Source: Phormidium tanganyikae FI6-MK23 (GTDB taxonomy: Bacteria; Cyanobacteriota; Cyanobacteriia; Leptolyngbyales; Leptolyngbyaceae). From it: DNA of 35,161 nucleotides. Each line of letters opens with the position of its first letter. Within the stretch, counting starts at the first letter, position 1. The stretch lies in the NCBI GenBank assembly GCA_019359175.1, contig JAHHHU010000035.1, forward strand, positions 1 through 35,161, written 5' to 3'. Made by a program: the position numbers and the translations under genes. Shown here one piece after another: positions 11,484 to 27,648 of the stretch. The notes under the pieces were generated by a model that searched no databases, was not told the DNA's origin, and saw only the letters and a list, made by a program, of their open reading frames with translations.

Positions 11484-12059
11484 TTATGCGCTCACTTCTG
11501 TTGCTGAAGTGGCTAGCTGTTCTTTGGCTAACCGTCGCTTACGGGCATAAAGCTGAATGAATGCTGCCATGGCGATCGACATTCCAAAAATTCCCCAAGC
11601 GGTTGCACTGGTTGGAATATCATTCTTGAACACAGCTAACATCACGATAATTACAAACAAAACCGTCGGGAATTCATTAAACCAGCGGAATTGCTGACCT
11701 GTCATCTTACAAGTATCAGCGGCAAGGCTTTTCATAATCCTCAAGCACGCATGATCATAGATGATCAACAGTGCAACACACGCCAGTTTGACATGGAGCC
11801 AAGGCTGTTTGAGAACATCAGGTTCCGTATAGACAAGCCCGATCGCCATTGCGATCGTCAACACTAATGCAGGAGTCATGATGATGCGATACAGCCGCTT
11901 CTCCATGATTTGATATTGGTTTCTAAGAATGCTGCGGGCGGGTTCTGCTTGCTCATTTGCTTCCGCGTGATAAACAAACAAGCGAGGCAGGTAAAACAAC
12001 CCCGCAAACCAGCAGACAATTCCCACGATATGAAATGCCTTAAACCACTGATATGCCAT
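11484..12059 (-). CDS. hemJ: Protoporphyrinogen oxidase HemJ
   Basis: The 191-residue membrane protein is the cyanobacterial-type protoporphyrinogen IX oxidase, needed for heme and chlorophyll. It begins YQWFKAFHIVGIVCWFAGLF with the conserved His that is important in HemJ, has the RLFVYHAE segment, KRLYRIIMTPALVLT, WLHVKLACV and RWFNEFPTVLFVIIV, and four to five membrane helices. I chose ATG 12059 (MAYQWFK) because this matches the family length of about 190 residues; the frame upstream runs into the neighbouring DUF2811 gene. That gene ends eight bases before this start, so the two form an operon. Together with heme oxygenase at 5609 the window holds both a heme-making and a heme-opening step. 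Confidence 0.95.
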   Translation of the reverse strand: MAYQWFKAFHIVGIVCWFAGLFYLPRLFVYHAEANEQAEPARSILRNQYQIMEKRLYRIIMTPALVLTIAMAIGLVYTEPDVLKQPWLHVKLACVALLIIYDHACLRIMKSLAADTCKMTGQQFRWFNEFPTVLFVIIVMLAVFKNDIPTSATAWGIFGMSIAMAAFIQLYARKRRLAKEQLATSATEVSA

Positions 12060-12067
12060 AAGAATCG

Positions 12068-12268
12068 TTATGCAGAATGTTTCAAAAGCGTATCGAGACA
12101 AACCGAAGTCGTTTGTCGATCGCATTCTCCATTCTGCAATAAAAACAGGCTCAATGCGGCAGTCAAAACCTGATCTTGATCCCAGTCGGGATGTTGTTCA
12201 AGATAGTGCGCTAGAGAAATGTGAAGGGCTTCGGGAAGTTCGGTCAAGATGCTGACGATTGGGTACAT
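12068..12268 (-). CDS. DUF2811 family small protein
   Basis: A 66-residue protein with the compact DUF2811 pattern: VSILTELPEALHISLAHYLE, then HPDWDQDQVLTAALSLFLLQ and NG. The family is restricted mainly to cyanobacteria, is 55-70 residues long and has no known function; its layout resembles a short helical, ribbon-helix-helix-like protein, but this is only an impression. It ends eight bases before the hemJ start on the same strand and is therefore the first gene of a two-gene operon. A gene-free region with several DnaA boxes lies directly upstream. Confidence 0.85.
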   Translation of the reverse strand: MYPIVSILTELPEALHISLAHYLEQHPDWDQDQVLTAALSLFLLQNGECDRQTTSVCLDTLLKHSA

Positions 12269-12731
12269 AGAATTAACGTCTCAAACTGAATTTCGAGGAT
12301 ATGAACAGTCGAGCCTAGTTTTTCAACAGGCTGTGGAAAACGTCAACTTTTACAGAAAGATTTAATCTGCCGACTCAGGTGCAAACTCGCACCATCGAGA
12401 CGGCTAGGATGTAGCATTTGTAGTTGTTTCAGCCGTTTTTTTGCATAGGCTGTTTGAACCGTTTTATTGTCAATGAAAAGAGTAATTTCTGTCAATGCCA
12501 AAAAATGTATCGCGGGGGATCAGTTTGAGGGCGATCCAACGGTGGAATGCGGGTTTCAGCGATTTCACTTTCTATATTCTGAACACTGATGACGCAGACG
12601 ATACATATTCTGATGAATCTTTCAGTGGTTACACGGTTTATCCACAGGTTTAACTTTTTTGCTGTGGAAAAGCAGGCGAGTCTGTGGAAAACTCGCGCAA
12701 AACTGGGGAAAACGAGGGCGAATTCGTTTCC
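12269..12731. other. DnaA-box cluster; candidate replication origin or DnaA-binding locus
   Basis: No gene is visible in these 463 bases. Four exact DnaA boxes occur: TGTGGAAAA (reverse complement of TTTTCCACA) at 12332-12340, 12663-12671 and 12683-12691, and TTATCCACA at 12638-12646. Near-matches include TTTTTCAACAG at 12319-12329 and TGGGGAAAA at 12704-12712. Three exact boxes and a near one fall within about 75 bases (12638-12712) beside a short T-run. TTTTCCACA is the box type reported for cyanobacterial origins. The region also includes the promoter of DUF2811-hemJ. No dnaA or dnaN gene is in the window. Other possibilities are a DnaA-titration site or DnaA control of the hemJ operon. 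Confidence 0.55.
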
Positions 12732-14234
12732 TTAATCTTGTTTTTGGTTTTGGTGCCAAGTTTTAGCGTGCGATCGAATCTCGGTGAGTTCTTGCGGGGT
12801 CATTTTGTCGAGATTTGCCAAAATAAAGCTCATGCGCCCCTGACTCGTCAGCTTTTCGCGATGTCGATCGAGAAAGTCCCAGTAGAAAAAATTAAACGGA
12901 CACGCCTTATCGCCGATTCGAGTCTTCGGATTGTAGCAGCACTTCGTACAGTAGTCACTCATTTTGTTGACATAGTTTGCAGAGGAAGCGTAAGGCTTCG
13001 ATGCGAGGATACCACCGTCCGCAAACTGTCCCATTCCAATCACATTCGTTTGCATCACCCAGTCGTAAGCATCAATGAATGCTGCATGAAACCAGTTCTC
13101 GATTGCTTGCGGCGAAATGCCCGAAATCAGCGCGAAGTTACTCAGAATCATTAATCGCTGGATGTGATGCCCGTAGCCTGTGCGCTCGACTTGTGAGAGG
13201 CTTTGGCGAAGACAGTTCATTTCGGTCTGAGTAGAGTCCCAGAAGAAGGCGGGAAGGGGCTGAGTGTGGTTAAACCAATTGCGCGTAGGGTAGTCGTCTT
13301 CAGTAGAGAGGTAGATGCCGCGCATATATTCCCGCCATCCGAGAACTTGCCGGATAAAACCTTCGACGCTGTTAAGGCTGAGATTTTCAAGGTGATAGGC
13401 GCGTTCTGCCCATCGCACAATTTCCAGTGGATTCAATAGTCCGATGTTCAGATAAGGCGAAATCAGCGCGTGCCACATTGTTTCTTCGCCTGTAACCATT
13501 GCATCTTGATAAGGGCCAAAGGTTGGAAGTCGCGTTTTGATAAATGTTTCCAAGACTTGTAAAGCTTGATCGCGAGTCACTGCCCAAAGAAACGGCGTTG
13601 CACTTCCATAGGTAGGAAAGTTGATCGATTCAACTTTTTTGATTACAGCCGTTGTCATTTCGTCGGGTTCAAACCAGAGCGGCTCTGGGGTGATGAACTC
13701 TTTTCTTGGCGGCTTGCGGTTTTCTTGATCAAAATTCCAGCGATCGCCAATCGGTTTATCTCCGTTCATCAAAATGCCAAACCGTTTGCGCCCTTCTCGA
13801 TAGAAATCCTCCATCAGCATTCGCTTTCGAGGTTTTGCCCAGTTGAGAAAATCTGTCTCAGTCCAAAGAAAATGATTGTTCGGAACGATCGTAATGTCAC
13901 ACGGTAAGTTCAATGATTCGATCAACTTCGCGAAAGGTCGATCGATCGGTGACATCACTCGTAGTTCTGTGATGCTGTTGGCTTGAATCCAATCTATCAG
14001 CGGGGCTTCAAACGTTTCGGATTCGATGTAAGTAACGGATCTTTTCGTCGATCGTAGTTCTTGAGCAAAGTGCCGCATCGCAGACCAAATGAGAATCAGC
14101 TTTTGTTTGTGATACTGACGTTCATGTACGTGATTCAGCGATTCGATCAAGATAACGGGCGCATTGTCGATCGCCTTTAGCGCAGCTTGATCCTGTGAAA
14201 GCTGATCGCCTAACACCCAAATTCCGACAGTCAT
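12732..14234 (-). CDS. Bacterial FeS-type cryptochrome/(6-4) photolyase (FeS-BCP)
   Basis: The 500-residue protein belongs to the FeS-BCP group (PhrB of Agrobacterium, CryB of Rhodobacter), which repairs (6-4) photoproducts or acts in blue-light signalling. It starts with WVLGDQLS of the antenna-binding domain. Four cysteines for a [4Fe-4S] cluster are at 341, 429, 432 and 445; their spacing (88, 3 and 13) equals that of PhrB Cys350/438/441/454. The FAD domain shows FGPYQDAM, GWREYMRGIY, GYGHHIQRLMILSNFAL and VMQTNVIGMGQFADGG. I start at ATG 14234 since the longer frame would run into the divergent antitoxin gene. Antenna is expected to be a lumazine in this group. Enzyme versus sensor role cannot be decided from sequence. 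Confidence 0.93.
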   Translation of the reverse strand: MTVGIWVLGDQLSQDQAALKAIDNAPVILIESLNHVHERQYHKQKLILIWSAMRHFAQELRSTKRSVTYIESETFEAPLIDWIQANSITELRVMSPIDRPFAKLIESLNLPCDITIVPNNHFLWTETDFLNWAKPRKRMLMEDFYREGRKRFGILMNGDKPIGDRWNFDQENRKPPRKEFITPEPLWFEPDEMTTAVIKKVESINFPTYGSATPFLWAVTRDQALQVLETFIKTRLPTFGPYQDAMVTGEETMWHALISPYLNIGLLNPLEIVRWAERAYHLENLSLNSVEGFIRQVLGWREYMRGIYLSTEDDYPTRNWFNHTQPLPAFFWDSTQTEMNCLRQSLSQVERTGYGHHIQRLMILSNFALISGISPQAIENWFHAAFIDAYDWVMQTNVIGMGQFADGGILASKPYASSANYVNKMSDYCTKCCYNPKTRIGDKACPFNFFYWDFLDRHREKLTSQGRMSFILANLDKMTPQELTEIRSHAKTWHQNQKQD

Positions 14235-27312: not shown

Positions 27313-27648
27313 TCCTGAAAATCCTTGCCTTTGTTTCATTTGACGAAATTCTAACATAGCAAAAATGGCAGGATTCATTCTCAGCCCAGACATAATTAGA
27401 TACAAACTCGCGGGCCAAAGCAGTTTAAAAATAAGGAACCGCCTAAACCGAAGTCCAGGCGGAGTGTGGTGTGAGGAGTGAACGGAAACATACGTCTCCG
27501 CTTTCTCTATTCTAGACGACGGATTTCGTTTTACCAGGCAATCTTGCAAGTCCTGCAAAACTCTTAACCATTCGATGAAAAGATTATTTCGCGATCGCAA
27601 TCTGTAAAAGAAAGAGAATGCGATCGCAGAATATAGAGCGATCGAGAA
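27313..27648 (-). promoter_or_regulatory. guaB3-trxA intergenic region with a hairpin
   Basis: In these 336 bases CCGCCT (27439-27444) and AGGCGG (27457-27462) form a six-base stem, followed on the minus strand by TTCCTTATTTTT, a moderate terminator for guaB3. The trxA promoter should lie between the hairpin and 27312. Just upstream of the hairpin (minus strand) is TTCACTCCTCACAC, as at the ndhH terminator. Confidence 0.55.

Follow-up and report, generated by a model that had tools for sequence, protein, structure and literature searches.

What would DnaA do in a gap between two genes that lies on neither the dnaA nor the dnaN contig? The stretch of DNA analysed here (the window, 35,161 nucleotides, contig C31 of a genome of 5.74 Mb in 77 contigs) carries a cluster of DnaA boxes in such a gap. 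The original prediction was that it could be an origin placed away from dnaA, a titration locus, or a site of DnaA-linked regulation of hemJ. With the exact box defined as TTWTCCACA, the positions of the four exact boxes (three on the minus strand, one on the plus strand) and of two boxes with one mismatch were borne out, and four of the six lie within 12638-12712, the 75 bases said to hold most of them (Table 1). The gap is indeed free of genes: we found no gene-like frame between the photolyase-related gene, whose stop is at 12732, and DUF2811 (neighbour genes in the window were named by Pfam). The claim that the density exceeds chance also holds: under a Poisson model, four boxes within 360 bases would be expected about 5e-6 times. 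The sequence TTTTCCACA is the published cyanobacterial DnaA box, according to the accessible text of PMC4674748. A search of the whole window with Rfam at gathering thresholds gave no RNA family at the box cluster, the only match being the cyanobacterial small RNA Yfr1 elsewhere (27437-27501, RF01116, 53.6 bits). The mid-gap motif at 12402-12434 is strongly conserved within the genus, and its ends could pair (GGCT/AGCC). It was rejected as a universal part of the arrangement, since matches at 12 or more of its 14 positions are confined to the genus and a few relatives.

Table 1. Features of the box cluster and of the genes behind it (positions in the window)
Feature	Position	Strand	Remark
DnaA box, one mismatch, TTTTCCCCA	12704..12712	-	distal end of the tandem row
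DnaA box, exact, TTTTCCACA	12683..12691	-	member of the tandem row; in a conserved block (family alignments)
DnaA box, exact, TTTTCCACA	12663..12671	-	promoter-proximal member of the row, 20 bp from its neighbour; in a conserved block (family alignments)
DnaA box, exact, TTATCCACA	12638..12646	+	inverted, 25 bp to the promoter side of the row
Putative -35 region, GCATTGACA	12490..12498	-	164 bp downstream of the proximal box; predicted promoter activity
Putative -10 element, GACAAT	12466..12471	-	18-bp spacer; predicted by reading the sequence
Lineage-specific conserved motif, GGCTGAAA..TACAAATG..TAGCC	12402..12434	-	presumed leader
DnaA box, exact	12332..12340	-	in the presumed leader, some 64 bp ahead of DUF2811; conserved among aligned relatives
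DnaA box, one mismatch, TTTTCAACA	12320..12328	+	
DUF2811 gene (PF10929, 66 aa)	12068..12268	-	main partner of the box row
hemJ (UPF0093, PF03653)	11484..12059	-	starts 8 bp after DUF2811; adjoins it in only part of the class

If the cluster were a chromosome origin, it would be expected to adjoin dnaN, which according to the accessible parts of PMC7198777 and PMC4674748 is the usual place of oriC in cyanobacteria. The whole genome contains 107 exact boxes, against 48 for the reversed pattern, and at least four box clusters: one directly before dnaN (C5:104910-105257), one on the 3' side of guaA (C10:109918-109967), and two before DUF2811 genes (the window and C50:339820-339904). The window cluster does not adjoin dnaN, which has its own box cluster on contig C5, and the dnaA locus on contig C8 shows scattered one-mismatch boxes only. 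The C5 cluster is at the canonical place of oriC; it holds more boxes than the window cluster, on both strands, and the reading of the window as a chromosome origin is therefore not favoured. In the complete relative G020 the GC skew was flat, with no origin-like pattern at any cluster (20 samples of 20 kb; permutation p 0.91), and it speaks neither for nor against an origin. That the window cluster is a second or alternative origin is very improbable. Its several boxes in an intergenic gap and an AT-rich stretch resembling that of the dnaN gap would suit such a role, and multiple origins are described for some cyanobacteria in the accessible text of PMC7198777. Against it stand the richer, two-stranded cluster at dnaN, the relatives that carry both kinds of cluster, and the largely one-sided orientation and promoter geometry of the window row, which match transcription better.

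The genes that accompany such rows in other genomes are more informative. Phased box pairs occur in 55 of 58 genomes (our own included), and the reversed control gave none except single matches in three genomes. Sixty loci, from 20 relatives, were chosen among the matches listed for the phased-pair pattern and were compared with the neighbours of the clusters in our own genome: 22 precede a DUF2811 gene, 17 adjoin dnaN, 13 adjoin guaA, and 8 fall elsewhere. The context of DUF2811 (PF10929) itself varies, the gene being found beside hemJ, beside a PD-(D/E)XK gene, or without either.

We then defined a strict row as at least two boxes on the same strand, with at most one mismatch each and at least one exact, 20-23 bp apart and within 700 bp. 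Both DUF2811 copies of our own genome are preceded by one, the second copy being that behind the C50 cluster. To avoid any bias towards boxes, further loci were retrieved by DUF2811 alone, in sets of 30 (L208-237) and 20 (L238-257); two loci of the latter set come from dnaA-less genomes, and L238 was too short upstream to enter the strict count, although it shows four exact boxes there. A strict row lies upstream of DUF2811 in 44 of the 47 dnaA-bearing loci (29/30 and 15/17), and a row was found at all 21 DUF2811 loci among the named hemJ loci (best 80 of 587). The pooled dnaA-bearing set, which is partly box-selected and spans 78 genomes, has strict rows upstream in 82 of 86 loci, compared with 0/86 downstream, 0/86 for the reversed motif, and 0/1720 in mononucleotide shuffles. 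All 82 rows were scored on the strand of the DUF2811 gene, which the script examined first; single boxes in the 47 DUF2811-fetched loci also favour that strand, by 150 to 23. Boxes on the same strand are most often separated by 11 or 21-22 bp, which corresponds to one or two helical turns. In some other loci an inverted box, like that of the window, is found to the promoter side of the row at 44-45 bp.

The strict test failed in four of the 86 loci (L232, L253, L257, L036), and weaker boxes persist in each. Rows were recognised by eye in three more dnaA-bearing loci (L286, where the DUF2811 frame is present, L287, and L288), among them that of the very divergent DUF2811 of G155. Overall, the data support DUF2811, and not hemJ, as the main partner of the row across the class. 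Among the papers listed in literature searches on DnaA-box clusters, datA/DARS, and DnaA ChIP-seq in cyanobacteria, which mostly leave out subscription papers, no report of this linkage came up. Among minor observations, small-genome members of family f2 have two to five DUF2811 matches each, and of four f2 copies two have strict rows (L236, L252) and two have weaker boxes (L232, L253). A contig labelled Chloroflexaceae (L108, JAAUTE010000181.1) carries a cyanobacterial-type hemJ, DUF2811, and a box row, and is probably a misassigned bin.

What lies between the row and the gene? An upstream alignment of 17 loci of family f28, which we take to be Nostocales, shows a conserved block, GCATTGACA..GCACAATGATGCG. 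With at most one mismatch the GCATTGACA motif is present in 41 of the 47 DUF2811-fetched loci (controls: other strand 3, reversed motif 2, shuffles 29/235) and in 15 of the 21 named loci. In most loci TTGACA is followed at 18-19 bp by an xAxAAT element, and we infer that GCATTGACA belongs to a promoter. The distance from the proximal exact box to the motif is 168-173 bp in 32 of the 39 DUF2811-fetched loci that have both; 2,000 permutations of the motif positions gave a mean of 2.7 such loci and at most 9. The distance from the motif to the start of the gene ranges from 66 to 357 bp. The remaining spacings are 140, 149, 160, 161, 163, 184, and 190 bp, of which those from 140 to 161 bp are about one to three helical turns short and the other three match less well. 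Among the named loci the spacing is 168-173 bp in 11 of 15, those outside this range having 163, 164, 191, and 276 bp. The window, with 164 bp, shares its spacing with its closest relatives and is 7 bp off the general value; most loci outside the genus have 170-172 bp.

The pair of motif and box is missing from 8 of the 47 loci, and the second DUF2811 copy of our own genome (L003) has no good promoter motif, its best match having two mismatches and lying 38 bp from the start. As judged from the DNA sequence, the boxes occupy a conserved place relative to a promoter-like element, as at DnaA-regulated promoters. At 164-172 bp, direct contact with RNA polymerase would be a long reach, and a loop or another factor has to be assumed.

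The gene that the original prediction had placed under DnaA control was hemJ, which in the window may share the transcript of DUF2811. Of 110 hemJ loci, 107 offered the required minimum of 600 bp of upstream sequence and were examined. The row is present together with DUF2811 in 44, the row alone in 5, DUF2811 alone in 2, and neither in 56. The cluster thus recurs beside hemJ in relatives, with or without DUF2811, and is missing together with DUF2811 from just over half of the hemJ loci; DnaA-linked regulation as such is supported, with DUF2811 taking the place of hemJ as the main partner. The loci with a row only are L014 (G014), L018 (G025), L020 (G027), L025 (G011), and L068, a named contig that is apparently the same stretch as L014. 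In L012 (G005) and L013 (G007) the row is kept and DUF2811 is reduced to its last 31-32 residues; the 86 and the 44 include both of them as loci with DUF2811. The six G genomes with a row and an absent or truncated DUF2811 before hemJ all belong to the family of the window. At least two of them carry DUF2811 elsewhere, G014 at L201 with a row and G025 with two matches, and the copy at hemJ was therefore lost there while the row stayed. The row can thus outlive the adjoining DUF2811 gene, and its persistence before hemJ could mean that the loss is recent, that hemJ plays a part, or that the row has a function of its own.

Because these seven hemJ loci have a row and no intact DUF2811, we kept as a rival the possibility that DnaA-linked regulation is aimed at hemJ, and hence at haem synthesis, with DUF2811 as a passenger. 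The five row-only loci and the two with truncated DUF2811 keep a hemJ role open within the family of the window, where the start of hemJ 8 bp after DUF2811 also makes co-transcription likely. As the general explanation it has a slim chance. It would have to accommodate the 56 of 107 hemJ loci with neither row nor DUF2811, the row with DUF2811 and no hemJ nearby in G039, G052, G055, G053, and G049, and the weak promoter motif (two to three mismatches) behind the row in three of the five row-only loci; it also leaves unexplained the loss of DUF2811 together with dnaA, described below.

The phylogenetic distribution of dnaA provides additional information on the partner of the row. We searched the same 386 genomes of the phylum for DUF2811, for DnaA, and, as a control, for DUF3082, a small family encoded next door in the window. 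The class, which we infer to be Cyanobacteriia, was counted as 186 genomes, taking as outside it the genomes without a match and unlisted, in lists ordered by kinship. Within the class DUF2811 is present in 173 genomes, dnaA in 167, and DUF3082 in 184. Both dnaA and DUF2811 are found in 167 genomes and neither in 13; six have DUF2811 without dnaA, and none has dnaA without DUF2811. Fisher tests of the association with dnaA, which ignore kinship, gave 8e-16 for DUF2811, 0.19 for DUF3082, and 1e-4 for the row. The genomes lacking DUF2811, all of them dnaA-less, are G103, G108, G158, G168, G180, G194, G198, G200, G204, G233, G278, G300, and G307. In the dnaA-bearing G155 the DUF2811 match is weak (E 4e-6). 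Synechococcus elongatus, included as a control genome, also gave a DUF2811 match. DUF3082 was kept in 18 of the 19 dnaA-less genomes, being missing only from G103 (dnaA-less) and G155 (dnaA-bearing).

Related genomes with dnaA retain DUF2811: G192 (g78), G170, G369, and G411 (g52), G206 (g81), and seven of nine in g50. Counted by taxonomy and not on a tree, there are at least five lineages of joint loss (f31, f38, g51, within g50, and within g81). Two of the six dnaA-less genomes that carry DUF2811 have internal stops in it (G349, G196) and four have an open frame. Their upstream regions are also degraded to different degrees: G417 and G106 have no boxes, G313 has one exact and one one-mismatch box without the tandem spacing, and G230 has part of a row, which still satisfies the strict definition, while the promoter-like motif is retained in four of the six. 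A strict row in 1/6 of these carriers, compared with 44/47 in dnaA-bearing loci, points to an evolutionary dependence of the row on dnaA.

Outside the class (200 genomes of the phylum), DnaA was matched in 195 and DUF2811, at the borderline, in one (G156). Weak profile matches of DUF2811 in the dnaA-less G158, G168, and G233 (E 0.014-0.028) were rejected, being antitoxin-like frames without box rows. In genome G012 the DnaA domain was matched twenty times, in nineteen cases within frames of 183-333 aa that are presumably transposon helpers, and counts of PF00308 therefore need an E-value limit.

The sequence of DUF2811 gives hints as to its nature. The protein of the window matches the PF10929 profile with 85.8 bits (gathering cut-off 26.6) and is acidic by hand count, with 9 D/E and 2 K/R in 66 aa. 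P12-E13, Y22-L23, and D30 are invariant in 22 DUF2811 sequences, whose pattern, VSIxxEIPEELHxxLxxYLExHPxWDxDRVxxAALxxFL, hints at a ribbon-helix-helix sequence lacking the basic strand residues; the weak profile matches to antitoxin-like frames hint at the same fold. Two AlphaFold2 models, with mean pLDDT of 60.8 and 73.6, contain no strand. Fold searches gave as best matches unrelated helical proteins (Foldseek E 1.6, VIA-align Z 6.0); no ribbon-helix-helix protein is among the matches listed for these models of low to moderate confidence, which excludes nothing. Sequence searches found nothing below E 0.49 among PDB sequences, a best match of E 0.0083 in PHROGs (phrog_14216, unknown function), no match in NCBIfam, and in Pfam only DUF2811 above the cut-off. 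DUF2811 is not named in the literature searched, which mostly leaves out subscription papers.

The fixed spacing to the promoter-like element and the loss of the protein with dnaA are needed neither by an origin nor by a pure titration site, which makes a DnaA-controlled DUF2811 promoter the economical reading. On the evidence of conserved sequence, the cluster probably controls, from upstream, a DnaA-responsive promoter that drives the gene of a small protein of the DnaA pathway, DUF2811. DnaA would assemble on the tandem boxes, which face the same way and are spaced by one or two helical turns, and the row would act on a weak-looking promoter 164 bp downstream (TTGACA, a long spacer of 18-19 bp, and a CACAAT-like -10). 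Transcription of DUF2811, here probably with hemJ behind it, would be switched by the level or the ATP state of DnaA, and DUF2811 would itself belong to the DnaA pathway, its likeliest role being feedback control of DnaA or of initiation. The observations are the boxes with their phasing and orientation, the distance that they keep from the promoter-like element, their linkage to DUF2811 across the class, and the joint loss of DUF2811 and dnaA; DnaA binding, promoter activity, the sign of regulation, and the action of DUF2811 are predictions from them. Two further facts count against this DnaA-controlled promoter: four dnaA-less genomes keep an open DUF2811 frame, and dnaA is dispensable in some cyanobacteria that retain it, according to the accessible text of PMC7198777.

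A further step, which we put forward tentatively and hold to have somewhat less than an even chance, is that DUF2811 may be an unrecognised DnaA regulator found across the Cyanobacteriia, a functional counterpart of SirA, YabA, or Hda. Expressed from a DnaA-switched promoter, it would close a feedback loop by which polyploid cyanobacteria limit their replication, and the lineages that dropped DnaA-dependent replication would have dropped the loop as well.

The titration of DnaA, also suggested in the original prediction, is possible and yet on its own leaves the fixed spacing to the promoter-like element unexplained. The row would then buffer or recycle DnaA, like datA, DARS, or the DnaA-box clusters of Bacillus subtilis, and DUF2811 would be incidental. 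Clusters outside oriC that affect initiation are known (PMC5295017, accessible part), a further one lies 3' of guaA in our genome and its relatives, and in some hemJ loci the row has remained although DUF2811 is absent or truncated. We nevertheless regard this as rather unlikely, since the row is oriented towards DUF2811, its spacing is fixed to the promoter-like element and not to the gene, and it is the DUF2811 protein itself that is lost with dnaA. Moreover, the distance from the dnaN cluster seems to vary in the few complete relatives compared, unlike the conserved relative distances of the Escherichia coli sites (as given in the accessible text of PMC5010248): by hand comparison of three complete relatives, the row is nearly opposite the dnaN cluster in G003 and G020 and close to it in G001. 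The sites might also bind another protein sharing the TTTTCCACA sequence. This is highly unlikely, as the motif is the published cyanobacterial DnaA box and recurs with similar phasing at the dnaN origin, and as rows are mostly missing from the dnaA-less carriers of DUF2811.

The DnaA-controlled DUF2811 promoter can be compared with known systems. DnaA acts as a transcription factor, for example in B. subtilis (PMC4447404, accessible part), and DnaA-regulated promoters likewise have clustered boxes upstream of a promoter-like element. Here, by contrast, the boxes go with a single target family throughout a class and at a rigid spacing, and the target protein is uncharacterised and lost with dnaA. 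The window cluster, with several DnaA boxes outside oriC, resembles the B. subtilis clusters, E. coli datA, and DARS1/2, as far as these are described in the accessible text of PMC5295017. It differs from them in having a mostly one-sided row that is linked to both a protein and a promoter-like element, and in that its distance from the origin is not conserved in the few genomes compared. The oriC at dnaN has the same box sequence and the same 11/21-bp phasing (accessible text of PMC4674748 and PMC7198777); its boxes are more numerous and on both strands, whereas the window row is mostly one-sided and faces the promoter-like element. Like YabA and SirA (PMC5295017, accessible part), DUF2811 is a small, lineage-restricted protein that accompanies DnaA.

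Hda and DiaA are further small regulators of DnaA. DUF2811 differs from all four in that its gene carries DnaA boxes and that its role as a regulator is predicted from sequence. To our knowledge, the regulation of DnaA in Cyanobacteriia is an open question. The gene dnaA is essential in Synechococcus elongatus, dispensable in other cyanobacteria, and absent from a few, according to the accessible part of PMC7198777. Present in 167 of the 167 dnaA-bearing genomes sampled in the class, absent or broken in 15 of the 19 without dnaA, and usually behind a phased row, DUF2811 is a directly testable candidate for the missing regulator, and the row would allow DnaA-linked control to be recognised from genome sequences.

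The clusters at guaA form a second recurrent site of DnaA boxes outside oriC, being found in 13 of the 60 fetched cluster loci. In our own genome (C10:109918-109967, equivalent to L002:3919-3968) three exact boxes, 20-21 bp apart, lie immediately 3' of guaA; this gene, TerC, and the CDF gene at C10 bear names that we presumed from reading their sequences. Triple boxes 3' of hemJ in L106, L111, L115, and L141 precede the CDF gene of the guaA neighbourhood, and guaA itself was matched in L106 and L141. The clusters of L160, L164, L169, L175, L182, L190, L192, and L207 adjoin none of the three recurrent gene classes; those of L164, L169, and L190 resemble the guaA-type triple.
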